In this document: in pieces, positions 34,047 through 51,201 of the stretch | How the letters are laid out: each line of letters starts with the position of its first letter | How positions within the stretch are numbered: position 1 is the stretch's first letter | Assembly (NCBI RefSeq): GCF_020405225.1 | Contig: NZ_CP084472.1 | Location: 744,001-808,000, forward strand | Source: Natrinema sp. DC36 | GTDB lineage: Archaea > Halobacteriota > Halobacteria > Halobacteriales > Natrialbaceae | DNA length: 64,000 nucleotides | Direction: 5' to 3' | Translations under genes and position numbers: made by a program | Notes under the pieces: generated by a model | Database searches by the model: none | What the model saw: only the letters and a program-made list of their open reading frames with translations | What the model was told of the DNA's origin: nothing

Positions 34047-34050
34047 CTTC
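34007..34050 (+). repeat. left attachment site (attL) within tRNA-Lys
   Basis: From the anticodon to just past the tRNA end. Two parts recur at the other end of the island: CTTAATCAGACGGTC at 34007-34021 (15 of 15 at 49414-49428) and the 18 bases 34033-34050 (18 of 18 at 49529-49546). Confidence 0.85.
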
Positions 34051-34748: not shown

Positions 34749-36281
34749 ATGTGCTTGGAAAGCAAAGATTCAGAAGTAGAATCCAATCTTGATGCCAGTC
34801 TAAAAACACAGGACAAGCCGATCATTGATGCCTTCTCGCATGTGGAACATCAAGCCCTTCTAACAATAGAGACGGCCGAGAAAGTCAATCTAAGCGATTA
34901 ATAAGTACGTAGACAACTGAAAGACCTTGCGAGTCGGGATATTCTGGGAATGGTGGTTCGAAGGACAGATAGGGAAAGAGATATATTGGAACTGTTAGTA
35001 TGTGTGTATATGTCGAAGGTTAAGCCGGACACACCTAACTTAGATATCTCTCGCTCATTCTGGCTCGATCTCGAAACCCCATATGGACTTATTGACGATG
35101 AATGGGATCGATATAGGTCCCAGCTCAACCAATATGTCATAGAGGACTACAGAATAAGTAAGGAATTGTTAAAAGTTCATTGGTGTCTCGAACGAGAATT
35201 AAGCCAAATTCCATATGAACGAGAACCACTACTTAGTCATATTCTTGATGATAATGAAGAATACGGAAAGAACATCCTCTGTGCATATCGATTTGCAAAT
35301 GGAAAGAATAAGAAACGTGTTGTCGCCTGTTTTGAAGAGATAGAAGGGGAAGTTGCCGGTGCGGATTTCATCACTCTCTATGAGGATATTATGGAGTCAG
35401 GGAGTAGAGATGCAATGGTGTCTATGATTCAACTGTTTAAACCAGAGGTACTCCGGAATATATTGGGTCTCCAGTATTGCTACGGTAGGAAACCTCAACT
35501 AATTCGTCACTCAGAGTCTAAATTAGAAAAGTTAGATGCGCTCAATATCGATAAAGTTGCGGAATCACTAGAACACATCACAGACTCGTACCGGCCGTGG
35601 CATAGTTTCACACATGATGAAAAACTCTACTTCCTAATCAAACGTCGTCTCGGAGACGAAGTCGAGAGACAAGTTGATGAAAATCTCGAGGAGGAACCGG
35701 CTGAGTTTGTTGTACTGATTTTTGATGGAACAGAACTCCAGATATTTTCAGAGAAAAAGAAAATCGCGTCTAATGCTCTAAGTGGAATCAATGAAGCCAT
35801 AGAACAGACTTTCCAGGAAGAGGAAGACGATGATGGGATTGATGAAGATGAGATCGAAGACCACCAGTTCGATGATATGGGTCAAGAACTTACTTATGAA
35901 GAGCTCAAGTCCGCAATAGGTCTTGCTAAAGATATTGAAGACAATACTGATTTGGTTCTTAAGGGTGTAAACGTAGAGAACGCTGATCTCCCGAACAGTC
36001 CGGAAATCCAGCTAAAAGCTAACGAAGGTGTTCAGGAAACATTAGATTGGTTCGAAGAGCGAAACGTTGAACTCCTCAATCACCCGGATGATGTGAAAAA
36101 TATTACGTTTGTTTATGAAGGTCGGGACTTCACACTCCTACCTCGGGAAGGCTCATCAAAGGGTGAAGAGGGGTGGATCTTCCGGTATAATGCATCGTAT
36201 CCGAGTGACGAAGAACGCGAAGAGTTTGAGGGGCAAATAAAGGAGTACATGGACGTAGAGGTCCGGTTTGAGAAATCTTGA
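34749..36281 (+). pseudogene. winged-helix gene interrupted by tandem stops (N-terminal wHTH plus unknown body)
   Basis: Reading from the ATG at 34749 gives 50 residues ending in TIETAEKVNLSD, then TAA TAA, then in the same frame VRRQLKDLASRDILGMVVRR and on without a break to 36281. The text across the stops is that of one winged helix-turn-helix domain with the stops in the recognition region. The remaining body can be made as a 443-residue protein from the ATG at 34950. It is very acidic, with an EEEDDDGIDEDEIEDHQFDD stretch near residue 300, and matches no family I know. Whether it is a decayed gene, two proteins, or readthrough is open. The next gene overlaps by four bases. Confidence 0.55.
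34950..36281 (+). CDS. acidic protein of unknown function, body of the split wHTH gene
   Basis: 443 residues if started at the ATG at 34950. Contains no recognised domain beyond the tail of the winged helix. Residues 100-240 look alpha-helical; residues 300-330 are a Glu/Asp-rich linker; the C-terminal 100 residues (NITFVYEGRDFTLLPREG) look like a small alpha/beta domain. The long intact frame with no further stop argues that it is still under selection. It is translationally coupled to the nuclease-like gene downstream, so the two proteins probably act together. Confidence 0.6.
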   Translation: MVVRRTDRERDILELLVCVYMSKVKPDTPNLDISRSFWLDLETPYGLIDDEWDRYRSQLNQYVIEDYRISKELLKVHWCLERELSQIPYEREPLLSHILDDNEEYGKNILCAYRFANGKNKKRVVACFEEIEGEVAGADFITLYEDIMESGSRDAMVSMIQLFKPEVLRNILGLQYCYGRKPQLIRHSESKLEKLDALNIDKVAESLEHITDSYRPWHSFTHDEKLYFLIKRRLGDEVERQVDENLEEEPAEFVVLIFDGTELQIFSEKKKIASNALSGINEAIEQTFQEEEDDDGIDEDEIEDHQFDDMGQELTYEELKSAIGLAKDIEDNTDLVLKGVNVENADLPNSPEIQLKANEGVQETLDWFEERNVELLNHPDDVKNITFVYEGRDFTLLPREGSSKGEEGWIFRYNASYPSDEEREEFEGQIKEYMDVEVRFEKS

Positions 36282-37687
36282 TCAGCTCGAACCATATCCT
36301 AAAAGACGGAAAGACGAATCTGTCTAGTTCTGAGCGTACGAAAGCCAAGGAATTGCAATCGACGGGACTGTGCGAGATTCAGGAGCACCAGTACATAGAC
36401 TGTGTTGATCCCGATGATGAAGACTATTTTCAGATATTAGATAAGGGTTGTAGAGGGAAAATCCAGGTATCTACATCAGATAAGCATACTAGCTGTCCTG
36501 AGTGTGGACGAGACATATACTTATCTGATAAGGATATTAAGCAAAGCTCAAGGATAGCTCTAAAAGAGTCTGGTATCTACAGTTTTGTCCGTGATAAGGT
36601 AAAGGACGTGTTAGAGTGTTCAGTCAGTAAAAAGAGAAACGGATTAGTGTATAACGGTGATCGCCTTGAACCAGTATTTGAGGCTCATACTGACACAGAG
36701 CGGATTACAGTTCATATCCTCCTTGAGCATATCCCTCGAACGACCATCAAATGGCTTCGAATCTACAATCGATCCAGTTTCTTTATACTCCTTGACGGGT
36801 CCTTGAGTTGTTCCGATGAGTTGGATCGACTAGGTCTGCCCTATCTCACAATTAGTGAACTGATCGACAGTGATTCGGAAAAGGCCATTAAAAGCAAATA
36901 TCAAGAGATCACTGAGCGGGGACCTCTTGTAGATATTGAACAACGGGCTTCTATCGCTCTTGAAATGTGTACATCAGATGATGTCCTCAGGCATATGGAT
37001 TGGTCTGACTTTGAGCATTGTGTTGACTCTATGCTAAAATATTCTATCGGTACTTCGCACCTCTATGGTGGAACTGAACCAGGAACTGGAGTTCCTGATG
37101 GCACGCTAACTTTGAATTGGCCTGGTAACGATTGTCTCTACATGTGGGACGCTAAATTTGTTGACTTGTCATCTAATGATGAGACAAATCTGTCTGATGA
37201 ATATAGCAAAATATTCCGCCATCTCCAGGAACTCAATTCGAAGCAACAAACGGAACCCATCTATGACCAGATCCATGGAATATGTTTGTTCTCTCCTGGA
37301 ATTGCGGAAACGAGTATTACTCGTCTCGCGGAATTCATTCAAGAACAAAACCTTCCTTCGGAAACTGAATGGAGAGGTTCGATTTGTTACTTTGGATTAG
37401 ATGCTCTGACTAAGATGACCCAAATGAAGATCGAGAACCGTTCAAATATAAAACAAAAGATGGGGAAGTTCGAGAATGCATTAAATCAATACCTCTCTAC
37501 ACCCGCCAAACATGCTAATGAACCAGAGATGATCAGCAATAGCCAATATCAGGCTGTCCATATCAGCCCAGAGGACATAGAAGCTATTTTCGAATATCTC
37601 TCTGGTCAGAGCAAAGAAACATTTGAATTTGATAAACAAAAACATATGAATTATCTCGAATTTAATTTTTCACTAAGTGATAGCTGA
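36278..37687 (+). CDS. zinc-ribbon protein with PD-(D/E)XK nuclease-like domain
   Basis: 469 residues. Starts with TTG in a TTGA overlap with the stop of the preceding gene. Residues 50-85 hold CRGKI and CPECGRDIY, a probable zinc ribbon. From about residue 225 a restriction-endonuclease-like region follows: HMDWSDFEHCVDSML (helix with Glu, as at the start of Mrr-like folds), GVPDGTL with Asp274, then MWDAKFVD with Asp291 and Lys293. That is the PD...DxK arrangement. No methylase or helicase is adjacent. Likely a nuclease of a two-gene defence or conflict module; targets unknown. Confidence 0.65.
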   Translation: MISSNHILKDGKTNLSSSERTKAKELQSTGLCEIQEHQYIDCVDPDDEDYFQILDKGCRGKIQVSTSDKHTSCPECGRDIYLSDKDIKQSSRIALKESGIYSFVRDKVKDVLECSVSKKRNGLVYNGDRLEPVFEAHTDTERITVHILLEHIPRTTIKWLRIYNRSSFFILLDGSLSCSDELDRLGLPYLTISELIDSDSEKAIKSKYQEITERGPLVDIEQRASIALEMCTSDDVLRHMDWSDFEHCVDSMLKYSIGTSHLYGGTEPGTGVPDGTLTLNWPGNDCLYMWDAKFVDLSSNDETNLSDEYSKIFRHLQELNSKQQTEPIYDQIHGICLFSPGIAETSITRLAEFIQEQNLPSETEWRGSICYFGLDALTKMTQMKIENRSNIKQKMGKFENALNQYLSTPAKHANEPEMISNSQYQAVHISPEDIEAIFEYLSGQSKETFEFDKQKHMNYLEFNFSLSDS

Positions 37688-37895
37688 GATTTCGAGTGAG
37701 ATATACGCTAAATACCCACTCAATAATTGGATCTTCTGTTTTAAATCGAGTCAGGGTCAATTATCCTTGATTCGAAAAGTTCGTCAAAGGCGTCTCTACT
37801 TGTTATTTTTGCTTTTTCTCCTAAGTGTCGACTGGCTCTTGTTATGTAGTGGCGAGCTCTCTGAGCTCACTTCGGTATACATCAAATTTTCTATT

Positions 37896-38132
37896 CTATT
37901 TCGCAATCTTCTCCGCATACTCTGGATCATTCTGATACTCTTCCTCAAACGCTTCCATCCCACGTTCGACGAGCTCGGCCACGCCTTCAGTCCACTTCGG
38001 CCCACCGTCAGAACGTTCGAGAGCCATCTCCTCAAGAATGTAGATCGCCAGTTCCTCTTTTGTCACATCAACTTTACGTGAGGGGCCGAAGTAGACCTCT
38101 ACCCGGCGGTCGTCGTAATCATGCGGAGGCAT
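37896..38132 (-). CDS. small acidic conserved-looking protein
   Basis: 78 residues from the ATG at 38132 (MPPHDYDDRRVEVYFGPSRK). The GC content and acidic composition are those of a real haloarchaeal gene, unlike the AT-rich spacer around it. Mostly helical: ELAIYILEEMALERSDGGPK, then WTEGVAELVERGMEAFEEEY. No family recognised. Convergent with the nuclease-like gene, 208 bases away. Confidence 0.6.
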   Translation of the reverse strand: MPPHDYDDRRVEVYFGPSRKVDVTKEELAIYILEEMALERSDGGPKWTEGVAELVERGMEAFEEEYQNDPEYAEKIAK

Positions 38133-38677
38133 TGAACGCGCACCTCCTGGGATTGTATACAATGCCGTTAGTGTTCTGTGGCGTGTGATCTACGAATAAT
38201 GATATTGCTTGAGCACCCGGAATTCGGCCGGTGTAATTTAATTCCAGCCGGTAAAGGAGTTGATATCGCCCGAGATATCAACCTCGTGGTTCTCAACTAC
38301 TCGTGATTGACGTTATTGACTTTCTAATCGCATTGATCGGCCAAATACCTAACGAGCTCTGTTTAATTTGAATTACCAAGTGAACGGCACCCCGTCATCT
38401 CTGGCATCTAAATGAATATCAAAAGAGGGAATTAGACCAGGAATGAGGTAGTTTATACAGGGGAGATACCGTCCTCTTTGCTCACCATGGGATTGTATCG
38501 GAATATCGGGGTATAGGCGTAATATTCCAGTTTCCGTTCAAACACCCATAATGTAGTTCCAAAATTTAGTATTTTTCGCGCACGAGTTCCCCCCTTCTTG
38601 ATAGGAAGAAGTTTTCACCCGATATAAAAAATAGCGAGATGTTTGATATCTATCTAACTTAACCTCAGTGTACTTGA

Positions 38678-38716
38678 CTGTGGGAGACGAGGTCGGCCTC
38701 GTCTGTCGGACAGTGT
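38678..38716. repeat. extended inverted repeat
   Basis: A perfect 7-base stem with a 4-base loop, GACGAGG-TCGG-CCTCGTC at 38686-38703, enclosed by an outer CTGT/ACAG pair (about 38678-38681 and 38711-38714). It lies about 110 bases upstream of the second structured element. It could be a terminator, an operator or part of a longer RNA. Confidence 0.5.
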
Positions 38717-38802
38717 GATACGCCAGGTTCGTGAGGAATCATCATGGACGTTTTTGAATTTTCACAGATAGACGGCGTAATTTTGAAAGGTGCATGATAC
38801 CG

Positions 38803-38810
38803 TTTATAAC
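38803..38810 (+). promoter_or_regulatory. TATA-like box before structured element copy 2
   Basis: TTTATAAC; transcription would start about 27 bases later, at or near the first base of the element at 38825. Confidence 0.4.
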
Positions 38811-38824
38811 ATACACAGCGACCG

Positions 38825-38924
38825 CAGTAGCACGATCCCGAACCGAAGGTTCGAAATCGGCTACAGACAGCATAGGTATTGGCCCTCAGAGGGTTGGACT
38901 GTTCCGCAAGACAGCACTGCGTTG
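38825..38924 (+). ncRNA. candidate structured RNA element, copy 2
   Basis: Same fold as copy 1: stem GTAGC (38827-38831)/GCTAC (38860-38864), inner hairpin CGAACC-GAA-GGTTCG (38839-38853), later hairpin CTG-TT-CCGC-AA-GA-CAG (38899-38914). Relative to copy 1, the outer stem changes one G-C to A-T, the inner one T-A to C-G, and the third one C-G to T-A, each on both strands. A TATA-like box is well placed for transcription from about 38830. Confidence 0.55.
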
Positions 38925-39698
38925 AAGAGGAGTACGAATCCTCCTGGTCGATCATCATGGACCGGGCACCACAACTCGAGAGTGAATTCCACTACAGTAA
39001 GAATAGAAAGGGTGAAACTCTTGAGTCGAAGTAAGATCACCCGGGGGAGAAAAGCGTCGACGATCAAGGGGGAACGACGTTACTAGGGTGCGATCTAAGC
39101 TACCTCAGTCGATCACCACAACGTTTCGATTTCTTCTGAATGGGATTTCATTAGGGTATCTAGAACTCTTGTGAGAGAGTACAGAGCATCTTCTAAAAAG
39201 ATAGGAAAGATATCGAAGGATATTAATGACCGATATTGACTAGAGACTGACTGTATAACCCCATAGAGAAAAAACCTGAGACCGAGAAAAGAGTTCAAAT
39301 TAGAAGGTTATAATAGATAATATTGTTTTGTCTTTACGGCAAGAGAACACGGACAGGGGGTCTCTGATTATCACGCATTTGGCTTTGAATCATCTAGCGT
39401 GGTTTGATTTTCTTCACAACTACGCTAATCTCGAGATTACTCTTTTTGAACAAGTCAGTTGCATTCTTACAGAGTTGCTCTTCCACTCTATTCTATGCAG
39501 TTCGGGTGATCAGTCGGTAGAAAGGTTCTATCTGTAATACTCGGAACGCGGAACGTAGGTTAGCTATCGTTACATCTGTCACCCATAACCAAATCACTTA
39601 TATCTATCGAGAAACTAGTTCTGTTGAGAGCGTTTTAGGCTGGTCGGCAGTAACGAAGATTACGTTGGAAAGTCGCATGCAAGCCTGATTCCGGCGCT

Positions 39699-39777
39699 AC
39701 CCTAGTGTGGCTTAGTAGAGCGTCTGCTCTGTCTCTTTAAAAAGGGTTTTGTCACACAGAGCAAGTGCAGGTAGGGT
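39699..39777 (+). promoter_or_regulatory. nested inverted repeats around the primase-operon promoter
   Basis: Inner perfect repeat TGCTCTG (39725-39731)/CAGAGCA (39757-39763) flanks a TATA-like TTTAAAAA (39736-39743). Outer repeat ACCCTA (39699-39704)/TAGGGT (39772-39777). The GTG start of the next gene is two bases after the inner repeat. It looks like a regulator-binding operator or a tRNA-sized stem-loop; the piece gtggcttagtagagcg is also reminiscent of a tRNA D arm. Confidence 0.45.
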
Positions 39778-40451
39778 CATGCGAGAATAATATGCAAACA
39801 AGTTCAGAAACCAACACAACCGTTACAACCGAGTGTGAATGTCCCGACTACCGTGAACCTGCACATCCCCCTGATGATGAGCGGGTGTCCTTCTATGCTC
39901 TAACTCACTCTGGTCAGAGCTCAGAGATACCAGAGAGATCAGATTACTGTTTCACTGGTGGACAATGGCAGACATGGGAGAATATGGGTCCGGACGCAGA
40001 GAATGTAAAATCCACTGCACGTACAACCTTCTATGCTAAGGATCTCCCTGAGAGATACTCCCATCGGACCCATAAGTTCGACCGTTTCTGGACCCTACAA
40101 ATGGGGCGAGGGCATACCTGGGAAGACGATTCCGATAGGAAGTCAATCCGAGAGCGGGAAGACAATCTAAATCGATGTGATGCTATTTTACAGAACTGTG
40201 ACGTTCCAAGATGGGCCCGAACAACTGCCTTATCGCGGGTTCACAGGACTAATCTAGTAGGTTTCAACCGGAATCATAAGGGTATTCATGGAGCATGTAT
40301 CGCCTTCGCCTTACTGATTATGTGTGATAGCCCAGAAGAGGCTCAAGGAACTCGAGTCGCAAAACTGGCTACAACTGTACCAGTTCTAGATAGAGAAATA
40401 GTCGATATGGTGATCGATTATGCATTTCGGAAATATGGGGATGCAAATTAA
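39765..40451 (+). CDS. replication-module protein of unknown function
   Basis: 228 residues from a leaderless GTG, or 219 from the ATG at 39792. No family recognised. The N-terminal third is polar with CECPDYREP; the middle contains RFWTLQMGRGHTWEDDSDRK; the last 90 residues are helical with RWARTTALSRVHRTNLVGFN and a hydrophobic GACIAFALLIMCDSPEEA. That last part has the look of a cyclin/TFB-like helical repeat, but I would not claim it. It overlaps the primase gene by one base (TAATG), so the two are one operon. Confidence 0.6.
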   Translation: MQVGSCENNMQTSSETNTTVTTECECPDYREPAHPPDDERVSFYALTHSGQSSEIPERSDYCFTGGQWQTWENMGPDAENVKSTARTTFYAKDLPERYSHRTHKFDRFWTLQMGRGHTWEDDSDRKSIREREDNLNRCDAILQNCDVPRWARTTALSRVHRTNLVGFNRNHKGIHGACIAFALLIMCDSPEEAQGTRVAKLATTVPVLDREIVDMVIDYAFRKYGDAN

Positions 40452-41419
40452 TGTCTTCTGAGAATGGACCGCAGAGACAACACGGATGGGGGTTAGTTCC
40501 TAAAGAACTCCGTGGACGAGATCAGTGGGTCGTTACGACGAACAAGGTACCCGTCATACCTGCAAAAGGATGGCAGAAATATGAGAATCAAATGGCCTTC
40601 CAGAAGGCATGTCGTCTGTCTAACCGTCAGAACGGTGAACCGGCATATGTACTTCTCCCAGATGATCCATTCGTCATAATCGACTTCGATGATATAGGAC
40701 CTCCAAAACCAACAAAGGTCAGTGACGAGGTGGCTGAAATCGTTAAACGACTCAACACCTATGTAGAAGCCAGCCGTTCCCAGACTGGGCTCCATCTAGT
40801 GTGTAAAGGTACACGTCTTCCTGATCGAAATGAAAAAGCTGAACTCAAGGATAGGGGGACAATCGAAGTGTATGACTCAGGGCAATATGTAGTCCTAACT
40901 GGAAATCAGCTAGACCCATATGATTCAGTCAGGTGTTTCAACCAAGGAAGTACCAACGAGTGCAATCCACTCATCGACCTCCAGCGCACGTATCTTCCTG
41001 AACAAACTGAATCGGTCAATACGAATAAAGAATACAGCGATTACGAGCTTAGTAGCGCATCTGATAGATCACTAAATCTCACTTCTAAGGATATCAGAAG
41101 AACTCTGGAAGAGTATACAAAGGATGGTAGTTCAAAAGCAGAGCGAGCTCTCAGTCGATGGAATTCACCAGCAGAATCCGCCTATAGGTTTCCAACGGCC
41201 TCAGAGGCAGATCTCGCCTTCGTCTCTGATCTCGCGTTCTGGTGTCAGGAAGACGCTCAGCTAATGGAGGACTGTTTCCGCTCATCACAACGGATGCGCT
41301 CAAAGTGGGATATAGTCCACTACAGTGATGGACGAACTTACGGTGAAGGAACTATTCAAACGGCCATCCGATCAAACTATGATATCTTTTCTGGTCATCA
41401 TGTAACGATCTCTGATTAA
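40451..41419 (+). CDS. archaeo-eukaryotic primase (prim-pol) family replication protein
   Basis: 322 residues. Residues 15-150 match the primase-polymerase fold used by plasmids and viruses: WVVTTNKVPVIPAKGWQKYE, FVIIDFDDIG with the metal aspartates Asp78 and Asp80, SRSQTGLHLVCKG with His115, and GTIEVYDSGQYVVLTG. The C-terminal 90 residues (SEADLAFVSDLAFWCQEDAQ, FRSSQRMRSKWD) are the small helical domain that often links prim-pol to a helicase, but no helicase follows. It probably primes or starts replication of the excised element using a host helicase. Confidence 0.8.
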   Translation: MSSENGPQRQHGWGLVPKELRGRDQWVVTTNKVPVIPAKGWQKYENQMAFQKACRLSNRQNGEPAYVLLPDDPFVIIDFDDIGPPKPTKVSDEVAEIVKRLNTYVEASRSQTGLHLVCKGTRLPDRNEKAELKDRGTIEVYDSGQYVVLTGNQLDPYDSVRCFNQGSTNECNPLIDLQRTYLPEQTESVNTNKEYSDYELSSASDRSLNLTSKDIRRTLEEYTKDGSSKAERALSRWNSPAESAYRFPTASEADLAFVSDLAFWCQEDAQLMEDCFRSSQRMRSKWDIVHYSDGRTYGEGTIQTAIRSNYDIFSGHHVTISD

Positions 41420-41793
41420 TAACAGCGGTTGGTGATACGATTACTTTATTTAGAATTGGGTACAGAACTGAAACGTCTGGCTCTGTTGGAATCATATTAT
41501 TCATAGTATTTTATCGTGAACCATATGCCCACTTCATGTGCGGACTGACAGCTATTACTTCTATCAGCTGTCAGTGATGATGACAAAGCCGTGCTGAATA
41601 CAGTGCGCGAATGTGGCACTCGGTAGAGCGCGATCTACGTGAAGGGTCGAACGCTCAGTATAGGTGAGACACATATCCTTCGGTAGAGAATCAAAGAATA
41701 ATAGGGTAGCTGACAGACTATGTATGTACGTTCATTCTCATCTCTGAGGCAGGTTTGGAAAGTTTTTTGCTGATGACAACACAATCATATCTA
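41420..41793. other. non-coding region with hairpin and repeated motif
   Basis: Contains a perfect 9-base inverted repeat CTGACAGCT/AGCTGTCAG (41545-41553 and 41566-41574), then at 41591-41619 a GTGC...GCAC hairpin containing GCGCGAATGTGGCAC, a motif that recurs at 43112-43126. The piece ggcactcggtagagcg resembles a tRNA D arm and ggtcgaacg a T loop, so a decayed tRNA is possible. Confidence 0.45.
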
Positions 41794-42213
41794 ATGGCCA
41801 TTAATCGCCGTACGTTTCTTTCTGTGTTCGGCTCCTTTCCCTCCATATTTGTTGCTGGGTGCCTGAATGGGGAATCAGGGGAGGATGAAAGCGAATGTTT
41901 CAGGGAAAAATGGCCAGTCGTTCTATACAATGAATCGGCAAAAACAAAATCGATAGAGGTCACGATTACCGATGATGAGAACCAGATTGTGTTCTCAGAT
42001 ACTATCAAAGTGGCTCCCGATACGGACACGAGTACGGGTGTTGAGCTTGACCTAGAGGTTTCCTACGACCAATCCTACACATTTGAGGCTGGCCTCCCCA
42101 GAAGAGCGGATGCAATCAAAGAAACAGTAGTTAATTGTGGTAATGTATATATTTTCGTCACCGGATCTGGAGAGGTAATCATACGAGACGACGATCTCAA
42201 AGGAGACATGTGA
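41794..42213 (+). CDS. putative lipoprotein
   Basis: 139 residues from the ATG at 41794. MAINRRTFLSVFGSFPSIFV followed by AGCLNGESGED is a Tat-type signal with a lipobox, giving an anchored protein with Cys near residue 23. The mature part is an all-beta-looking domain (KSIEVTITDDENQIVFSDTI) with an acidic tail. Small haloarchaeal lipoproteins of this kind are common; the function is unknown. Confidence 0.7.
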   Translation: MAINRRTFLSVFGSFPSIFVAGCLNGESGEDESECFREKWPVVLYNESAKTKSIEVTITDDENQIVFSDTIKVAPDTDTSTGVELDLEVSYDQSYTFEAGLPRRADAIKETVVNCGNVYIFVTGSGEVIIRDDDLKGDM

Positions 42214-42396
42214 TGGCACGTTCAGTCCGCGCGTCCCTCTACCGAATCACCGTTCTTGTTTACAGTTATTCCCGAGCAGAATACCGCGCTCAGTACAGGA
42301 GGTATAGTTATCAAGGTAAGACTCAGCCTCTCCGGATGTCGTCTGGAATGATTTGCTGACTAAAGAAGTTCTGTCGGTCAACACTCCTGTTGGTTT

Positions 42397-42903
42397 TCAA
42401 TCAGACTGCCTCTGATTTCCGTCTGCAAGTAATGCGAAAGCTAACGATCCATATCCGATGGCAAGTGGAATTAATTTGATTCGATAGGAACAAGAAAATG
42501 TGCAGGGTTCCGGCTGAGTGTCCACGAGTAGGGTCGGGCCAACCATTCCTGCGTCAATGGCGAATTTGATATGCCGCCAATGCTCGTAGTTTTCGGGTAT
42601 TCGACACCCTCCGCCGAGACATGCGAGGAATAACGTCATAGCGCCCCAGAGGAGGAAGACCGTTCCAATAGTGGCTCTCCATGGGCGAGTCGAGAGCCAC
42701 CCAACATAGGAGCCGACAAGAAGGAGAAGCCCCGGCCCAATCACATAATTATACATATCCCATCCATTCACATCGCCAAAGAAAGGAAACGGAAATAAAG
42801 AATTGAGGACCATCGTGGTGATAATGCCCGTGAGGAGGATCCAAAGAGCAAGAATCCGGACAAAATCACTCTGAAACCTGTGTAGGTGCCGAGTCGCAGT
42901 CAT
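42397..42903 (-). CDS. small integral membrane protein
   Basis: 168 residues with about five hydrophobic segments: VRILALWILLTGIITTMVLN, VIGPGLLLLVGSYVGWLS, ATIGTVFLLWGAMTLFLAC, and a last IPLAIGYGSLAFALLAD. No known family. It is convergent with the lipoprotein gene and divergent from the Panacea operon. Confidence 0.6.
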   Translation of the reverse strand: MTATRHLHRFQSDFVRILALWILLTGIITTMVLNSLFPFPFFGDVNGWDMYNYVIGPGLLLLVGSYVGWLSTRPWRATIGTVFLLWGAMTLFLACLGGGCRIPENYEHWRHIKFAIDAGMVGPTLLVDTQPEPCTFSCSYRIKLIPLAIGYGSLAFALLADGNQRQSD

Positions 42904-43226
42904 ATATGTATATCAATCTGGAATAATAATATCTCTTTGGTAGGATCAGAGGTGACTTTGTCCATCACGAAATACGCAACTGTAGTGGACGGATAGTTCA
43001 CCAGCCTCGTCGTGAAATAAACTCGGTTGCCGTGCTGTACTCATCCTCTGTATCTTGCAGACCGCTTCTGACAACAGATCGGTATTTCGTTGAGTCTTTG
43101 CAAGATACAGGGCGCGAATGTAGCACAGACTGAGAGACGGTCTGCGAAGGATAGTGATCGGTGAGTACAAGACGGATTTATGGAAACGCTCAAGAAACAG
43201 GGCACTGTGGTCAAACCCAGACCCAT
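42904..43226 (+). promoter_or_regulatory. structured leader upstream of the Panacea-nuclease-TGT operon
   Basis: Perfect 12-base inverted repeat at 43048-43059 and 43099-43110 (CTGTATCTTGCA and its complement). The segment GCAGACCG (43057-43064) can alternatively pair with CGGTCTGC (43138-43145), and CAGAC (43126-43130) with GTCTG (43140-43144), so at least two folds exclude each other. GCGCGAATGTAGCAC at 43112-43126 repeats a motif from 41605-41619. Could be an attenuator, operator or separate RNA. Confidence 0.5.
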
Positions 43227-43724
43227 ATGCCACGAATCGACCAAATAGACCGACGGACAGATGTGGTATTCATTCTTTTCCACCACGCGGGGTCGATTCA
43301 AGGCGTCACAAAGCTCCAGAAGCTCCTTTTTCTCGTCGAGGAGGAGACTGAGTTCTTCGAAAAGTATGGCCCCGAACTAGCTTTCGAGTTCACTGCTCAC
43401 AAAATGGGGCCGTTCTCGAAGCACGTTTATGAGGAAATCCGCTTCCTCCAGCAGCTAAAAGCGATTGAGACTGAGCCAATGGCAGGCGATTCCGACGGCG
43501 AAGAGTTTACAAACAAGGTATTTTATATCACTCCGAAGGGAGAGAAAATCGCATCCCAACTGTCAAACCAACTTGACGCTGAGTACGATGAGGAACTCAG
43601 AGCGTTAGTTGAGAAATATAACCCGATGGAGTTGCGAGAATTGCTCCGATACGTATACGAGGAATACCCTGCATTCACAACGGAGTCAGAGATTAAAGAC
43701 GAAATATTGGTGGAGACCGCATAA
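43227..43724 (+). CDS. Panacea/SocA-like (DUF4065) domain protein
   Basis: 165 residues from the ATG at 43227. VTKLQKLLFLVEEETEFFEK followed by FEFTAHKMGPFSKHVYEEIR is the recognisable core of the YwgA/SocA/Panacea group: a helical domain that starts with a K-L-Q-K-L-L-F/Y helix and has the GPFS..VY loop. Known members act as antitoxins that neutralise very different toxins, or as proteolysis adaptors. Its stop overlaps the start of the next gene (TAATG). First gene of a three-gene operon; by analogy it may hold the next two in check. Confidence 0.75.
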   Translation: MPRIDQIDRRTDVVFILFHHAGSIQGVTKLQKLLFLVEEETEFFEKYGPELAFEFTAHKMGPFSKHVYEEIRFLQQLKAIETEPMAGDSDGEEFTNKVFYITPKGEKIASQLSNQLDAEYDEELRALVEKYNPMELRELLRYVYEEYPAFTTESEIKDEILVETA

Positions 43725-44215
43725 TGAGCACGGAAGACCTGATTCAAACAATTCAAGCTGAGGAAAGTAAGGCAACGACCAGTGCTGGGGACGATTTTTA
43801 TATTCCAGAGAAATACCAGTTGGGTATCTTGACAGACTATCTCACAACCCACGACCTTGAGTACACTACTGAGGGACGCGTGTTTTGTTATCCTATTGAT
43901 ATTCTATGCGCTCGCAGAGAGACAACTGTCGCAATTGAGATGAAATCGGATAAGGTGAGCAGGGGAATTGAGCAAGCATGGCGAAACACGGATTTTGTCG
44001 ACTTCTCCTACCTTGCTGTGTGGGAAGAACGAGTGACTGATTCCCTCGTGGAGAGAGTTGAAGAGACGCCAGTCGGCTTGTTTTCAATCTCAGAGAACGT
44101 TAATCAGGTTTGTGCACCCCAAAAAACGGGGGAACAGTTATGTAGCCGGGATATAGTGTTCAATTTGATAGAAGATAATGTTCGAGACGACACTCCGATA
44201 CAACAGTCTGAATAA
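43724..44215 (+). CDS. PD-(D/E)XK nuclease-like protein
   Basis: 163 residues. After a variable helix, EKYQLGILTDYLTTHDLEYT and CYPIDILCARRETTVAIEMK form the minimal nuclease core with Asp59, Glu72 and Lys74 (D...ExK), followed by the helix SRGIEQAWRNTDFVDFSYLA. This arrangement is typical of small restriction-like nucleases that sense or cut nucleic acid. The C-terminal part (PVGLFSISENVNQVCAPQKT) is a conserved-looking strand often seen after the core. It overlaps the next gene by 38 bases. Confidence 0.7.
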   Translation: MSTEDLIQTIQAEESKATTSAGDDFYIPEKYQLGILTDYLTTHDLEYTTEGRVFCYPIDILCARRETTVAIEMKSDKVSRGIEQAWRNTDFVDFSYLAVWEERVTDSLVERVEETPVGLFSISENVNQVCAPQKTGEQLCSRDIVFNLIEDNVRDDTPIQQSE

Positions 44216-45434
44216 CAAGCATGCCGTTGAGGGAGAGTATCCACGGTACGACTCGCTCATCATCGACGGAAAGATGCTTGCTTATTCTAAGAAGGCACTC
44301 CCCCAATTCATCCAAAACCTGAATCAGGAACGAAGCCTAGACTACTATGTTGAGCCGATAATCTCGGACTTCAGGTCAGGGGACGACTTCAGATATCCTG
44401 ACGGAACAATCCGAGGATGGTACGATAGCTACGTAAACGAACTGGGAGATCCTCTGAAGCAAGCCCTGTTCGATTTCGATAACGTGAATCCTCGTCACTT
44501 AGACGAGGAGATTATTCGCGGAATTAGCAGGTCAGTCGTACTCTATCAGGAAAATTTTGTTCCAAACCAGCTGAAAGAGGAGTCAGGAAAGTACGAAGAG
44601 GTCGATCCGGATGAGGTAATGCCAAAAGCTGTCATCCCATGGCATCACCGGATTAACGAAAAATCGGATCTAGGACCCAACAGAACAATTCTTGACACCA
44701 CGAAAGCAGAAGCTATGCTTTCTCTCAAACCCTGTATCCACACAACCAAGTCGTTCATCCGAGATCGTTCACATAGAACGAGCCTAGTTGAGCTGGTGAA
44801 GGATTATGATGTTGACGAGTGCTTCTTATTGATTGAGGAACTCGGGAAACACAACACATACGAGAGCACCTACAAGGATGTTATCGACCTCGTCTACGAT
44901 ATTTCAGAGGCAGGTGTCAAACCTCACTTCTATTACGGAGACTACTTCTCCAATCTGCTATCCTACTTCGGCTTAGGTGGGACAACATACGGCGTCATGT
45001 ATGGTGAAGAGTACACTGAAACCACAGAGTACACTGATCAGGGCGGGATGCTTCTTCGATATTATGTGGACCAAATCAAAGATTTCCTTAAGGTCCCCGC
45101 CGCAGTCGAGTTAATGAAACGAACAGACTCCGCGATGTGTAAATGCGATATTTGCCAACGTCATTTCGACGACTGGGACGATACCGTAGCACACCAAGAA
45201 AGCGATGATCCCCTCATGAATCATCTTCAGAAACACTACATAGAACGGAGATGGCGTCATGCACGTCAGGTAGAAATCAAATCGTTCGAGACAATCATAT
45301 CGAAACTGGAGTCTGATCGCCAAGAGTATGTTTATCCGTATACCAACGCTCGACAAATCAGTCCAAACAAGGACTTTGATTATCTCCCCCGGTGGATTAA
45401 TGCTGTTAAGGAACGTTCAGAGCTTGTGAACTAA
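44178..45434 (+). CDS. TGT/DpdA-like protein (tRNA-guanine transglycosylase superfamily)
   Basis: 418 residues. The C-terminal segment has Cys321, Cys323, Cys326 (CKCDICQ) and His353, following C-x-C-x2-C-x26-H, almost exactly the TGT zinc site; RRWRHARQVEIKSFETIISK continues as in TGT. YYGDYFSNLLSYFGLGGTTY (about 252-271) reads like a late TIM-barrel strand and loop. The N-terminal ISDFRSGDDF, with Asp64, is where TGT has its first catalytic aspartate, but the match is weak and no clear nucleophile is visible. Island-encoded TGT relatives (DpdA) insert 7-deazaguanines into DNA; this protein could do that, modify RNA, or have lost catalysis. It starts inside the preceding gene. Confidence 0.6.
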   Translation: MFETTLRYNSLNNKHAVEGEYPRYDSLIIDGKMLAYSKKALPQFIQNLNQERSLDYYVEPIISDFRSGDDFRYPDGTIRGWYDSYVNELGDPLKQALFDFDNVNPRHLDEEIIRGISRSVVLYQENFVPNQLKEESGKYEEVDPDEVMPKAVIPWHHRINEKSDLGPNRTILDTTKAEAMLSLKPCIHTTKSFIRDRSHRTSLVELVKDYDVDECFLLIEELGKHNTYESTYKDVIDLVYDISEAGVKPHFYYGDYFSNLLSYFGLGGTTYGVMYGEEYTETTEYTDQGGMLLRYYVDQIKDFLKVPAAVELMKRTDSAMCKCDICQRHFDDWDDTVAHQESDDPLMNHLQKHYIERRWRHARQVEIKSFETIISKLESDRQEYVYPYTNARQISPNKDFDYLPRWINAVKERSELVN

Positions 45435-46595
45435 TACACCAAAAATTATGTCTCAATTATAATATTGTTTTAACACACTAATCATTCCGTGTATTACTAC
45501 AGTACTGATTGTGAGGTTTAGGTATTTTTAAATAAAGACATGGATTTCAGTAGCTAACTCATATTTATCGCTACGAGCGAAATGGGGCTAGAGCCTCTCT
45601 ACCGACCAATTACCCGAACCGCATAGTATAGAGTGAAGAAGTAACTTAGAATAGTAAGACTGTTCCTTCTAATGAATAAGAATCAATACCCTTTTCTAAC
45701 TAAACAGCTCCGTGAATGTCAAACTCACCATCAGCCAATTAGCTAAGTTCTGCTATCCCAGAGAGAATAGGTCTAATACAAAACAACCCCAACCGTGTTC
45801 TCTTTGCTGGCGGTTCTAAGTTAACGTTGCAAGAATTGAGAGATAGAACCTCGAGTCGGATTGAGCTCACTCAAGAAGGAAGATGTCCACGATCTGGTCA
45901 GAGGGGATCTCAGTCGGGAGGAACGACGTCAGAGGCCCTGCTGTTCGTTAGGAGGCAACCACTGTCTGCTGTAGCCTTCTTCACTACAACACTGCAGTGC
46001 TGTTACCCACAACAAGACCCCAATCCTTAGTGCTGTTAGGGACGTCTCATCTTCGATGTGACGGCCCATAGTTGTGCTGTAGCTGTCGTTGTGATATAAA
46101 ACAGACAGCTGTATGTTTCAAAACTACACTCTTCGTTAACTTGTAGTAGAAGCAAACCACTGTTTGTTTCAAACGAACCCTATCCCCTGTAGACCCCTTT
46201 CCCTACTCAGGGGGAGGGGGTATTCCTGAGGAGAGAAGTCGACCTCCTTCTCTCGAGCTATGTCGGGGATCCGCTCTATCGATGCGCGCTGGGATCCAAT
46301 CGTAGCCGGCTCACAGGCGACTCAGCGCATTCAGTGGGGCGCTGAATGGTTCGCCATTCCGATCTCGAGGAATCGGTTCAGAGGCAACTGTTGAACTTCT
46401 CGAGGGACGGCACTACTGTAGGTTTAGAAAAATTCGAATTAACCTAAATGAATATCCTATTAGAAGGAATAGGAGACGACCTGTGCGATTTCAGTTTCGA
46501 TACGATGGAAACCATTCAGACGAAGTTGAAAACGATCTGAATCGACGTGGTCCCTGTCAGAATCGATTGTAGCTACTGCTGGGATCCCCCAGTCG
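45435..46595. other. AT-rich non-coding region
   Basis: No credible gene. Two copies of CTGTxTGTTTCAAA lie at about 46111-46124 and 46159-46173, and a related GGTTTGAAACGAAC at 46766-46779. A near-palindrome around ACTGCAGT lies at about 45990. Such iteron-like repeats would fit an origin or regulator sites, but I cannot show this. Confidence 0.4.
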
Positions 46596-46700
46596 TTACG
46601 AACAGGGACTGAACCCGCAGTTGGGGCAAAGGGTACATCCGCCGTTTAAAATCATAAAGTCGTTACCATATTCGGGACAACCGTCGGTTTTGTTAGTCAT
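46596..46700 (-). CDS. very small zinc-ribbon protein with a degenerate CPxCG motif
   Basis: 34 residues from the ATG at 46700: starts MTNKTDGCPEYGNDFMILNG and ends in CTLCPNCGFSPCS. The layout CPxxG...CxxCPNCG is that of the tiny haloarchaeal zinc-finger proteins with two CPxCG motifs, but the second cysteine of the first motif is tyrosine. Similar ribbons also end large enzymes such as cobalamin-dependent ribonucleotide reductase, so it could be a leftover of one. Confidence 0.45.
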   Translation of the reverse strand: MTNKTDGCPEYGNDFMILNGGCTLCPNCGFSPCS

Positions 46701-47293
46701 AAACATGTGACTTGTTTTAGTCAATAACCTCGAGTGTCTGAGATAACTATCAGATTGATTAGTAAGGTTTGAAACGAACTTTTTTCTGATATATCCACCG
46801 GCCGACCTTCGTCGACGAAAGGATTCAGGATTCATTATAAAACACACTATATTATGAAAACCAACATCCGAAAGAGGAGTAAACTGCTCAAGACAAATGC
46901 TGGGGAGATCGATATAGCCCCAACAGGTCCCTTATCGGTTTAGTAGACCATTTGCTGAGACAGTGTCCCGGTTGTGTCTACTGTCGATGTCGTCCTGAGT
47001 TACCGTCTTCGAAATTACTTCCCACCCCTACTGCTGTCTAAGCGACGACATTTACACTTGGATGCCCGCCGTGATCGTCGACATGACAGCTCCCGATAGA
47101 ATCTCCACCTTTGTCCAAGCCATCTGATCCTCAACTATTGTAATTGGGACAACATCGACATTAGCCTACTTGGCGAGATTCCGACACTCATTACCTAGGC
47201 AGGTTTTGTCCTGTTCGGTCCATGTGGAGATTCCTGTTATCATCTCGAATCGGTATCAGAAGTAATTCAAGTAAGCTTATAGATTGGAATAGC
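46701..47293. other. non-coding region
   Basis: Nearly 600 bases without a coding frame. The segment 46960-47120 is GC-richer than its surroundings and might be a relic of a host-like gene, but I recognise nothing in either strand. Confidence 0.35.
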
Positions 47294-47482
47294 ATGAAGC
47301 GCTATATTTGCCCAATCGATGGCTGCACATCAACATTCGATGACCCAGAGTCACTCGCCGGTCACGTCGCTAGTAAAGCTCCAGACGATGAAGATCACTG
47401 GCAACAGCGAGAGTCACCTAATCACAAGCTTGAATGGTATGAGGAGAACTGTGAGGATGAGAATCAAAATACACTATTCTGA
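47294..47482 (+). CDS. small C2H2-type zinc-finger protein
   Basis: 62 residues from the ATG at 47294. MKRYICPIDGCTSTFDDPES continues into LAGHVASKAPDDEDHW: two cysteines four residues apart, then two histidines spaced by about 11, so a variant C2H2 finger. The rest is acidic. Small finger proteins are typical of haloarchaeal plasmids and viruses, often as DNA-binding regulators. A longer frame from 47222 is unlikely. Confidence 0.65.
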   Translation: MKRYICPIDGCTSTFDDPESLAGHVASKAPDDEDHWQQRESPNHKLEWYEENCEDENQNTLF

Positions 47483-47779
47483 ATGTTACGGACTAAAGAT
47501 ATTTCTGGGAACGTAGTTGCTTACATGTTCTCAAAACAATATTGATAGAGTCCCTCAATATGGGTTGAGACGCTATCTGTGCGATTAAGACTCATGGTAC
47601 CTGAAATTTGGCTAGCAGCATAATTCCAAACAGTAGTAACAATACCTCTGCTGGTTCTATCTAAACAGATCTTGTTCAATAGAAATACCCCTTCGATACG
47701 TCTTCAATGTTGTTAACAAAATATATTATTACGCCACTGAGGATGCATAACTAATGGAAACAAGGAAGATAGTAGATGT

Positions 47780-48268
47780 ATGGGAGATGATTACCCACAT
47801 ATACGGTCCAACCACAAAATGATACAGAAGAAACTCAAAGAACGCCTTTGCGACTATGTTGAGGTGTATTATGAGAATCCATCTACCGTCTCCGTTGGTA
47901 CTGAGCGTTGGATAAGCCCACCCCAATCTGGAAAAAGGAGAAAAATAGATGTTGTGATCGACATAAAAGATACGGTATCTGAAGATCTAAAAGGCATAGC
48001 ATTTGAAATAAAATCGCAATCGTCTTCGGGAATGCAGAAAGAAGCTATCAACCAATTATATGATTATTCAATTGCAGGCTATTCTCACGTTCTTGTCGCA
48101 CCTAAATGGTTATATCTAAGGGAGACTAGATATAATCCATCACTAGAATGGACTATTAAACCAATCAAAGCAAGTTATCTCGAAATCATTGACGATGATC
48201 CATATAGATTTGCCCTTCAAGAGGATAGGATTTCTGTCGAGAATAGCTTAGCAGAGTTCTTTGTATAA
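47780..48268 (+). CDS. stand-alone PD-(D/E)XK nuclease-like protein
   Basis: 162 residues. RRKIDVVIDIKD (Asp57) and GIAFEIKSQ (Glu76, Lys78) give the D...ExK core, followed by KEAINQLYDYSIAGYSHVLV with the Gln92 that is typical of the post-core helix in this superfamily. The protein is the size of a bare nuclease domain. It lies alone between a zinc-finger gene and the convergent integrase. It could be a Holliday-junction or restriction type enzyme, or a homing-like nuclease; no partner gene is visible. Confidence 0.7.
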   Translation: MGDDYPHIRSNHKMIQKKLKERLCDYVEVYYENPSTVSVGTERWISPPQSGKRRKIDVVIDIKDTVSEDLKGIAFEIKSQSSSGMQKEAINQLYDYSIAGYSHVLVAPKWLYLRETRYNPSLEWTIKPIKASYLEIIDDDPYRFALQEDRISVENSLAEFFV

Positions 48269-48330
48269 CATATGCCTCAATTCCATTATCACCTCCAGTA
48301 ATAAGACTTGGAACTACTGGTCAATGAGTA

Positions 48331-49329
48331 TTAGATATTATCTAGATATTCCCGTCGTTGCGACATTTTCTCTTTTTCAGTCATCTCGTTGTAGTGTTTG
48401 TCCATTACATCGGGACTCACATCACTTCGTCCCGAGACTACTTCTTTTGGAACATCATTTCGTATCATATGTGTTATTGACCCACGTCGGAACGCGTGAG
48501 GACTGACAGCATCGTCGCATTTGTGGATTCGCTCGTAACTGTGCTCGTTAACATCACAGGAGCAGTCGTCTCCGAGGAACTGTGGCGATGACACTAAATA
48601 CACGTTTTTCCGGATATTGGAGCGACTGATACGACCATAGTTGGTGGCAACGAGAGGTGTCCGTCCATACTCATCGTTGGTCCTGGGATGACGATGCTCG
48701 ATCCAGTCTTCAATCACGTGAGTTGTATCTTCCGAGAGTGCCACGGAACGCTCTCCACTCTGCCCGTTCTTCAGTGGTGTACCATACTCATCCCGGTGTT
48801 TGAGCTCGAGGTAGCCATCCTTGAGACTGACATCGTCTACGTCGAGCGAGCGTAGGGACCCCATCCGCATTGCAGTACGCCAGAGTAGGAGGACGATGAC
48901 GTGCCTTAGGCTAGCGTAATCGAATCGGTCGAGTTTCTCGAGTATACGCTGAACGTGTTCCTCTTCAATCTGTACTGATCGGACACCATCTCCATTCCGT
49001 AACTCAGGCATATCCACCTTCTCGTGGAGATTAGGGTGTACTGCGTCGATTGACTCCCAGAACTTGATCGCTTGTTTGAGGGTAGAGAGCTGAGTCCGAA
49101 CGGAAACTCGATTCAGTTCGCCATCCTGTTTTCTCCATTGTTGAAATTCGAATAGCTTCCGTCCGTTGAGTTCATTAAGGTTATTAATGGACTGTTCGTC
49201 ACACCAACGAACGAAATGTTTGAGTCGGAGTCTATGGGCATTGTGTGTTGACTTTGCAACATTATTTTGACGCTGCTTGAGATACATCTGGACTGCGTGT
49301 TCTGGTTCGAGTGGTTCTAATTTTGTCAT
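48331..49329 (-). CDS. tyrosine recombinase/integrase
   Basis: 332 residues from the ATG at 49329 (MTKLEPLEPEHAVQMYLKQR). Residues 10-95 are a SAM-like core-binding domain. Catalytic residues: Arg in RTAMRMGSLRSLDVDD, Lys probably in LKHRDEYGTPLKNG, His-x-x-Arg in SPHAFRRGSITHM, and the nucleophile Tyr in MDKHYNEM. The frame stays open to 49587, through the attachment site, but that part has no family character. Located at the right end of the island, reading inward, it is the likely enzyme for integration into tRNA-Lys. Confidence 0.9.
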   Translation of the reverse strand: MTKLEPLEPEHAVQMYLKQRQNNVAKSTHNAHRLRLKHFVRWCDEQSINNLNELNGRKLFEFQQWRKQDGELNRVSVRTQLSTLKQAIKFWESIDAVHPNLHEKVDMPELRNGDGVRSVQIEEEHVQRILEKLDRFDYASLRHVIVLLLWRTAMRMGSLRSLDVDDVSLKDGYLELKHRDEYGTPLKNGQSGERSVALSEDTTHVIEDWIEHRHPRTNDEYGRTPLVATNYGRISRSNIRKNVYLVSSPQFLGDDCSCDVNEHSYERIHKCDDAVSPHAFRRGSITHMIRNDVPKEVVSGRSDVSPDVMDKHYNEMTEKEKMSQRREYLDNI

Positions 49330-49413
49330 TTGTCCGCCTCTAGATGCCAGGTGTCGACGGAAAGTTGCCCACTGGTTGAGGGGAAGTGAGTTGATAGTCC
49401 GGCAGGACAGGCC

Positions 49414-49546
49414 CTTAATCAGACGGTCCGTGTCTCCTTTGCGTGTTCGCGCGTAAGCGCTAACCGCAAAGACTGCTGGTTCGGCGTCCCGGGAGCTACT
49501 GCACCCCGGCACCGCAACCAGAATCATCTCGCGCCCGGCCCGCTTC
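49414..49546. repeat. right attachment site (attR), interrupted
   Basis: CTTAATCAGACGGTC at 49414-49428 and 18 bases at 49529-49546 match tRNA-Lys exactly, but are separated by 100 bases instead of 11. The intervening segment folds into two nested hairpins: CTTTGCG/CGCAAAG (49437-49443, 49465-49471) with an inner GCGC-GTAA-GCGC, and TGGTT/AACCA (49477-49481, 49516-49520) with an inner CCGGG/CCCGG. Confidence 0.75.
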
Positions 49547-49692
49547 TCGCCGCGAGCGAATTCGCAAATGGCAAAACCGATCCTCAATCGAGACGGAGAT
49601 GGATCTCAGCCAGTAACGGAGCGAAACTCCTCCGAGCACTCGAGCCAGAAGTAAGTCGAACCACCCGATATAACGCGACGCGAGCCGCCGCG

Positions 49693-51201
49693 TTACCGAG
49701 TGTCTCGAACCCCGTCGGGGAACTCGTTGTTCGCGAGGGAGACGGAACCGGAGTCGCTGATGATGGTCAGGGAGTTACTGTCCGTCAGGGAATTGGCGTA
49801 ACAGTTCTCGATCGCCACGTCATCCGCACCGTGGACGACGATCGGCGTGTGCGTCGTCGTGAATTCCGAGTCGACGAGGGTCGCGTTGTCGCCCCGCAGC
49901 TCGAGGCCGCGTCGCTTGTTGGGGCCGCGCTGTTCGACCGAGAGCCCGTCGAACCGACAGCCGTTTCGCTCACAGAGGATCGCGTGGCGCATCGTCGATC
50001 CGTCCGCGTCGCCGGTGATTCGAACGTCTTGCAGGTCGACCGCTCCGGCGTCCTGCCCGCGGATCTGAACCGCGTTTGCGCTCCCGTTGATCTCGATGTC
50101 GACGTCTTGGATCGCCGTCGCTCCCGCCTTGGGGTCGATCCGGATCCCGTTGCTCGAACCGTCGGCGACGGAAATCTCCGAACCCGTGATCGAGGTGGTG
50201 TCGACGCTGTTCATGATTTTGATCGCGTCACCGTTCGGCTTGGGGACGTCGATACTGACGCCCTCGAGTGCGAACTGGTCCCCGCGATCGAGACGAATCG
50301 CGTGCTGACCGTTCGAGTCGTGCGGATTCTCGTCGACGACGATGGTCGCGTCCCTGATCGTGCCCGTCGCGCCGCCGAGGCGGATCGAGGCGGTCGCGCT
50401 GTTCTGGAATCGGCCGCCGTCGACGTCGACTCGACCGGTTTCGCTCGAGGCGTACAGTCCGTTGTCCGGAAAGCCGCCGAGCACGCAGTCGTCGAACACG
50501 AGCGTTCCGCGGTGATTTTGGTCGGCCGCGATTCCGGTCGGTCCGCGCCACAGGTTCCCCGCGTTCGGCGTGTCGTCGACGTGATCGGCGCCGTCGGCCG
50601 CACAGAAGCGCTCGACGAGACCGCGCCCGTCGGGGTCGGTGATGTTGAACAGCCCCGGCCCCCACGTCCCGCTGTCGTGGACGCCGCGGACGAAGACGTT
50701 CCGCACGACGAGACCGTCCTCGATCTGGGCACTGAGGACGCGGATCCCCGTGTTCGACGCCGTCTGGTCGATGTCGAATCCCTCGAAGCGGAGCGTCCGT
50801 CCGGGGGTGTCGCTCGTTCCCATCCGGAACAGGCGATACTGCGGGCCATCGAACTCGTGGTAGGGCGCCGGGACCAGCGTCGCGTCCTCGCCGACGAACC
50901 CGACGTTTTCGAACCCGGTGAGCCGCAGTTGCTCGTCCATGTAGTACCGCCCCGGCGGGAATGTGAGGAGCGTATCGTCATCGACGTGTTCGCGCAAGAC
51001 GGGCGTGATAGACTCGTCGCCCTCGTTGTCTGCGCCGGCCTCGACCACGTCGACGACGGTCCCGTATTGTTGTTCGGTCTGTTCCCCGCTCTGCGCTCCC
51101 GCCACCCCGGCAACTGAGAGCGTCGAACCCAGTCCGACGACACAGCCTTTCAGATACGATCGCCGACCGAACCGCATAGTTCGTGAGTCGTTTGAAGTCA
51201 C
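49693..51201 (-). CDS. secreted right-handed parallel beta-helix protein
   Basis: 502 residues from the ATG near 51201; several other in-frame starts lie close. The N-terminus MRFGRRSYLKGCVVGLGSTL is a Tat signal, with cleavage expected near VAGAQSGEQ. The mature part parallels 24166-25815: YGTVVDVVEAGADNEGDESI, then a conserved GTWGPGLFNITDPDGRGLVE and rungs of short beta strands. No catalytic residue can be pointed out. It is a lone gene next to the island; placed far from its paralogue but of the same length and layout. Confidence 0.83.
   Translation of the reverse strand: MTSNDSRTMRFGRRSYLKGCVVGLGSTLSVAGVAGAQSGEQTEQQYGTVVDVVEAGADNEGDESITPVLREHVDDDTLLTFPPGRYYMDEQLRLTGFENVGFVGEDATLVPAPYHEFDGPQYRLFRMGTSDTPGRTLRFEGFDIDQTASNTGIRVLSAQIEDGLVVRNVFVRGVHDSGTWGPGLFNITDPDGRGLVERFCAADGADHVDDTPNAGNLWRGPTGIAADQNHRGTLVFDDCVLGGFPDNGLYASSETGRVDVDGGRFQNSATASIRLGGATGTIRDATIVVDENPHDSNGQHAIRLDRGDQFALEGVSIDVPKPNGDAIKIMNSVDTTSITGSEISVADGSSNGIRIDPKAGATAIQDVDIEINGSANAVQIRGQDAGAVDLQDVRITGDADGSTMRHAILCERNGCRFDGLSVEQRGPNKRRGLELRGDNATLVDSEFTTTHTPIVVHGADDVAIENCYANSLTDSNSLTIISDSGSVSLANNEFPDGVRDTR

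Follow-up and report, generated by a model that had tools for sequence, protein, structure and literature searches.

TGT folds mark tRNA and DNA. In CBASS, the fold has recently been shown to handle a base-protein conjugate (PMC11996544), and Panacea proteins neutralise diverse toxins, nucleases among them, by direct binding and complex formation (PMC8832971, PMC10440598). We analysed a three-gene operon of Natrinema sp. DC36 (hereafter the trio) in which a predicted TGT-fold protein is encoded together with a Panacea-like protein and a predicted nuclease. Panacea (PanA/DUF4065) toxin-antitoxin systems resemble the trio in placing a Panacea gene in a short overlapping operon, but they carry one toxin whereas the trio has two conserved partners. 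Dpd systems likewise encode a TGT-fold protein and a nuclease within the same operon. The trio differs from them in four respects: (i) the DpdA catalytic motifs are missing; (ii) there are no DpdB- or DpdC-type genes, and no Dpd partner gene is found among the annotated operon or neighbour genes; (iii) there are three genes only; and (iv) a Panacea gene is added.

Two further defence systems contain TGT-family proteins. In type IV CBASS, Cap10 is, like gene 3 of the trio, a defence-linked member of the family that has diverged from tRNA base exchange (PMC11996544), but the partners of gene 3 are a nuclease and a Panacea protein, with no CD-NTase or QueC-like protein; the operons that we read consist of the trio alone or of the trio and a membrane protein. 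The defence loci of BRC (BREX-related capture) likewise encode a TGT homolog (PMC12839542), and differ in their PglZ, HerA, DUF6079 and GNAT genes, none of which was seen adjoining the trio. Finally, the archaeosine and queuine TGTs share the barrel and zinc-subdomain topology of gene 3 (Z 20–22), in contrast to a sequence identity of about 8%, the absence of DSG(G/S), D-x-P and FD(S/C) from gene 3, and the blindness of PF01702 to it.

PMC8832971 names two haloarchaeal PanAs annotated as plasmid genes, and one of them is gene 1 of the trio on Haloarcula marismortui pNG400 (WP_049938427); no TGT-like partner was found in the main text of that paper, and its supplement may list a partner for this gene. 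PADLOC-DB 2.0.0 gave no match for genes 2 and 3 at E values up to 1 and no full named system, Pfam, NCBIfam and PHROGs contain no system that covers both genes, and the literature searched holds no description of the trio. Thus, the original prediction, which knew the three genes under no system name, agrees with these searches, and there appears to be no earlier description of the trio as a system. It joins known kinds of parts (Panacea modules and TGT-linked defence) to a third component that is unusual.

The anatomy of the trio is well supported. The three overlapping open reading frames are present in the window (the whole 64,000-nt stretch that was analysed) as originally predicted, and the overall coordinates given for them, 43227–45434, are correct. 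Genes 1 and 2 overlap by 1 nt and genes 2 and 3 by 38 nt. The window is part of a haloarchaeal chromosome, and the trio lies in a stretch from about 34 to 49.6 kb which we interpret as an integrated mobile element because of its low GC content, its start at a tRNA-Lys gene, an integrase near its end and a flanking 23-nt repeat (Table 1). The true start of the integrase is probably inside the open reading frame listed.

Table 1. Features of the window and neighbours of the trio at other loci.
Feature	Position	Strand	Remarks
Gene 1, Panacea/SocA-like, 165 aa	43227–43724	+	ATG start
Gene 2, PD-(D/E)XK nuclease (predicted), 163 aa	43724–44215	+	Starts on the gene 1 stop codon
Gene 3, TGT-fold protein (predicted), 418 aa	44178–45434	+	Zinc motif at residues 321–353
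AT-rich integrated island with the trio	34028–49546	.	About 45% GC against 64% GC in the surroundings
att-like repeat, 23 nt, first copy	34028–34050		End of tRNA-Lys
att-like repeat, 23 nt, second copy	49524–49546		
tRNA-Lys	33973–34047		Start of the AT-rich stretch
Tyrosine integrase of the island	48331–49587	-	PF00589, E 8e-14
tRNA-Arg	34600–34697		
Partial copy of tRNA-Arg	38822–38885		
Inverted repeat, first arm	39473–39530		
Inverted repeat, second arm	45589–45646		
Gene pair	34950–37687		443 and 469 aa
Small open reading frame	47780–48268		162 aa
Neighbours at L017			Type I HsdR and HNH protein
Neighbours at L018			C5 cytosine methylase and type II restriction-enzyme-like protein
Neighbours at L022			D12 methylase and type IIG enzyme
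Neighbour at L016			EVE-AAA protein
Neighbour at L102			N-6 methylase, as annotated
Neighbour at L103			SIR2 protein of the PDC-S25/ThsA kind

Other features of the island were noted in passing. A tRNA-Arg gene lies within the low-GC stretch and a degenerate partial copy of it, 77% identical, follows 4.2 kb on; the two may be remnants of a second integration. A 58-nt inverted repeat (81%) has its second arm immediately downstream of the trio. Two overlapping genes occupy the opposite end of the island; the 469-aa product has a PDG...DAKF stretch that resembles a PD-(D/E)XK nuclease, and the pair matched nothing in Pfam or PADLOC. The small open reading frame near the integrase, with IDVVID...FEIKSQ...QLYDY, looks like another small PD-(D/E)XK protein of the island and had no match in the family libraries.

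Gene 1 was originally called Panacea on the strength of the motifs VTKLQKLLFLVEEE and GPFSKHVY. Both are present, and the protein passes the cut-off of SocA_Panacea (PF13274) in Pfam, with 27.2 bits against 25.7 (E 8e-6). Its PADLOC matches are PDC-M19A (E 8e-16) and the Panacea parts of DarG and of a specificity subunit. Positions invariant in an alignment of 16 members include T28, K32, F35, G61, P62, F63 and Y144. The gene 1 protein of the relative outside the haloarchaea (G641, see below) is also above the PF13274 cut-off and that of Arthrobacter is below it (E 0.019). By analogy with described Panacea proteins, gene 1 is likely an antitoxin or restraint, a role extrapolated to this locus since Panacea is found in other contexts too. 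At one locus a second Panacea-like protein is encoded near the trio on the opposite strand (L017:6696-7187; BLAST E 2e-8 against gene 1).

The protein of gene 2 in the window matched no family library, and single relatives of it show marginal resemblance to UPF0102, NucS, Hjc and NERD nucleases. AlphaFold2 predicts a restriction-endonuclease-like fold for the window protein (pLDDT 81.6), closest to SPO1766 (3dnx; VIA Z 14.3 over 131 residues, Foldseek E 1.8e-6). Further structural matches at VIA Z 8–10 are PaqCI (10.0), a Pyrococcus NucS-type repair endonuclease (9.7), EndoMS, XisH and Can2. The putative active site follows the pattern P57-x-D59...E72-x-K74...Q84; all 16 members, Arthrobacter included, share P57, D59, E72, K74, Q84 and A85. 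Structure matching and conservation therefore bear out the PD-(D/E)XK assignment, for which Asp59, Glu72 and Lys74 had been proposed as the core, and the invariance of the catalytic residues argues for an active nuclease. The substrate could be DNA or RNA.

Gene 3 had been proposed from the raw sequence to form a TGT barrel, and structure prediction and comparison gave that fold. The model, built on an alignment of 12 haloarchaeal relatives, has a pLDDT of 84.9 and a pTM of 0.86, and matches TGTs with a Foldseek E value of 6.8e-6. Its best VIA match is the archaeosine TGT 1iq8 (Z 22.2, rmsd 3.1 over 303 residues, 8% identity), and the best 50 VIA matches are all TGTs (Z 19.7–22.2, rmsd 3.0–3.8, 285–316 residues). 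Cap10 is not among these 50 matches, a negative without weight because known TGT entries fill the list. In a library of viral structures, the best match with a name, at E 1e-3, was an archaeal-virus queuine tRNA-ribosyltransferase, and none was closer.

At the level of sequence, the link to TGTs is faint. Nothing relevant was found for gene 3 in Pfam, NCBIfam, PADLOC, PHROGs or the PDB sequences; PF01702 does not match it, and the two PF01702 matches of the host genome, an ArcTGT and an ArcS-like protein, are elsewhere. Aligned by hhalign with profiles of haloarchaeal TGT and DpdA proteins, gene 3 scored weakly over its whole length (probability 41–43%) and more clearly only for residues 290–418, which include the zinc motif (P about 1e-4). 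The zinc pattern named in the original prediction is there (C321-x-C323-x2-C326-x26-H353) and lines up with that of archaeosine TGT when the profiles are compared. It is largely conserved, the cysteines in 13 of 15 relatives and the histidine in all 15; the cysteines are missing in L022 and Arthrobacter.

Are the catalytic residues of TGTs conserved as well? In the control set of haloarchaeal archaeosine TGTs and DpdA-like proteins, every member has D-S-G, D-x-P, H, G-x-D-x-F-D-S and C-x-C-x2-C...H-N. Set against these controls, the 15 members of the gene 3 family are without the DSG(G/S), D-x-P and FDS motifs. At residue 59, the end of strand 3, they have D, E, N or Q followed by an invariant Pro60, and no Asp stands at the position of the TGT nucleophile (FD(S/C), the end of strand 8). 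Instead, another set of residues is conserved: Pro60, Tyr253-Gly254, Phe257, Gly265, Gly268, Gly272, Glu277, Arg294-Tyr295-Tyr296, His353, Arg358 and Trp406. Because the classical motifs are replaced in this way, we regard gene 3 as a diverged lineage within the TGT superfamily and not as a canonical TGT or DpdA. Base exchange, one of the two activities originally suggested for gene 3, is not supported for a protein that has not kept DSG, D-x-P or the FDS nucleophile, in an operon where no 7-deazaguanine gene was seen. The genome of the window has only the ArcTGT and the ArcS-like match, without the separate DpdA-like proteins seen in relatives; in those haloarchaea (L063–L071), several such proteins of about 344, 414 and 660 aa occur with intact DSGG and FDS.

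Is the association of the three genes conserved? Linkage elsewhere was searched for, and it is strict: the complete trio occurs in order at 15 distinct loci, 13 of them haloarchaeal, one in another Halobacteriota genome and one on an Arthrobacter plasmid, and genes 2 and 3 overlap at every one. Gene 3 matched in 13 of 391 haloarchaeal genomes, one match (G173) being spurious; it was rejected as a relative because it is an antisense reading frame of GC-rich DNA (L027). The 12 of these genomes with a strong gene 2 profile match are the same 12 that have gene 3, in a one-sided test (the profile was built from trio loci) that found no unlinked close relative. Outside the haloarchaea, a phylum-wide profile search turned up one further genome, G641, with a 203-aa Panacea gene, a 139-aa nuclease gene and a 402-aa TGT-like gene in that order. 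With its gene 3 as query, we reached plasmid pSI-1 of Arthrobacter sp. AK-1 (E 5e-22), where the genes are together too. Three Haloarcula plasmids carry the trio, one of them being the same locus as L019. No relatives of the trio were found in the viral contigs and phage collection scanned, and a contig scan with three short patterns gave matches in haloarchaea only.

The three genes also share their history. Their trees agree and their distance matrices correlate (r 0.87–0.94, or 0.71–0.86 for haloarchaea alone), with none of 2000 permutations as high. When positions 33001–51000 of the window were compared by blastn, a block at 43180–45424 on the + strand matched the trio of genome G389 (L016) with 82% nucleotide identity, and within the 9-kb stretch compared the homology ends at the edges of the trio. 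Against this relative, dN/dS is about 0.08, 0.11 and 0.06 for genes 1, 2 and 3, respectively (range 0.05–0.11). Low dN/dS and an order kept from haloarchaea to Arthrobacter indicate that the trio is not a chance assembly, and by these sequence comparisons it is a unit that moves and is selected as one. Halorubrum sp. CSM-61 has a gene 3 that is interrupted near residue 102-103, with its halves on separate contigs (L028:2907-4404 and L021:4344-6621). Each half adjoins a 381-aa open reading frame, and the two copies of this frame start out identical, which would fit the splitting of the gene by a mobile element.

At two of the loci, a further protein is encoded between genes 1 and 2: in the haloarchaeon G159 (L022:3032-3619) and in Arthrobacter (L100:5914-6516). 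These proteins of 195 or 200 aa share a layout of three membrane-like segments, and their sequence similarity is not significant (z about 2). The two loci are those without the zinc cysteines of gene 3, a coincidence of two cases and too few for a rule. The trio usually sits close to known antiviral genes, and the neighbours listed in Table 1 lie within a few kb of it; judged from the gene list alone, the surroundings have the look of a defence island.

What, then, is the function of the trio? The reading that we favour, with about even confidence, is a mobile, co-transmitted defence or toxin-antitoxin-like module in which gene 3 would recognise, gene 2 cut and gene 1 restrain. The case is computational and draws on the folds, the conservation of the nuclease site, the loss of TGT motifs, the linkage across archaea and bacteria, purifying selection and the defence neighbours. 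Gene 2, a predicted PD-(D/E)XK nuclease whose active-site residues are all present, would be the cutting subunit. Gene 3 would be a specificity subunit that recognises, and possibly excises, a nucleobase and so brings gene 2 to a nucleic-acid target. Gene 1 would bind the products of genes 2 and 3 and restrain them until a virus or another element disturbs the trio, and at some loci the three-TM protein would be added. We infer a three-protein complex, its inhibition by gene 1, a base-recognised nucleic-acid target and an outcome in defence. Of the original alternatives of base exchange and base recognition for gene 3, the second is retained as the best reading; its coupling to a nuclease and to antitoxin-like control is kept in the same conditional form.

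Recognition may itself be an incomplete description if gene 3 is still catalytic through Glu277. It is possible that Glu277 is the key residue for excision: gene 3 could be a TGT-derived glycosylase in which this Glu stands in for the nucleophilic Asp, no base is inserted and gene 2 cuts the abasic site. Glu277, present in 15 of 15 members, is set on the TGT nucleophile by MAFFT in three modes, and both it and Arg294-Tyr295-Tyr296 are kept in all or almost all members, in Arthrobacter as well as in haloarchaea. A glycosylase of another fold, Brig1, is known in defence (PMC11078745); Brig1-type enzymes were rejected as relatives of gene 3, being members of the uracil-DNA-glycosylase superfamily and not TGTs. 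However, the predicted order of strands gives Thr270, not Glu277, as the nucleophile position, and neither the sequence nor the fold of gene 3 resembles a known DNA glycosylase. The loop that bears Glu277 (residues 277–290) has a pLDDT below 50. As a full account of the trio, we consider base excision unlikely.

Alternatively, the trio could be a pure toxin-antitoxin system, acting in addiction or abortive infection, in which gene 3 binds host tRNA or another RNA and gene 2 cuts that RNA. Gene 1 belongs to an antitoxin family, TGT barrels recognise tRNA, and the trio is carried on plasmids and on an island. However, the TGT match takes up all of gene 3 (1-418, against 33-357 of 1iq8) and leaves no space for the tRNA-binding PUA region of archaeal enzymes, and most structural relatives of gene 2 are DNA nucleases, which makes this reading rather unlikely.

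A self-marking system of the DpdA type would have gene 3 exchange guanine for 7-deazaguanine in host DNA, gene 2 cut unmarked DNA and gene 1 regulate. Dpd systems use TGT homologs in this way and BRC is proposed to do so (PMC12839542); gene 3 has the TGT fold, and the archaeosine TGT and ArcS-like genes of the host mean that the precursor is probably available. Yet base exchange by gene 3 is made less likely by the loss of residues that never vary in haloarchaeal ArcTGT and DpdA; the operon contains neither a helicase nor a deazaguanine gene at any locus that we read, and proteins with intact motifs occur separately in related genomes. We judge self-marking improbable. Lastly, a TGT fold that binds a nucleobase on a partner protein instead of nucleic acid is very improbable here, since type IV CBASS Cap10, the TGT-family protein so remodelled (PMC11996544; PDB 9ntn), works with partners that these operons do not have (QueC-like Cap9 or a CD-NTase), and the N-terminus of gene 2 varies among members.

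Returning to gene 3 as the recognising subunit of a restrained nuclease, we suggest, tentatively and with some doubt, that the trio is an undescribed defence system of archaea and bacteria, in which a base-exchange fold would serve as the recognising or excising trigger of a nuclease held by Panacea, with a membrane-tied subtype formed through the three-TM protein. Since the trio is present in Haloarcula marismortui, Natrialba asiatica and Arthrobacter sp. AK-1, it is open to direct tests. The nuclease and antitoxin partners of gene 3, together with its lack of exchange residues, suggest that a TGT fold may have been recruited to immunity as a sensor or excision module. If this is true, the trio would represent a Panacea system whose effector has two parts and whose conservation extends from haloarchaea to a plasmid of an actinobacterium.
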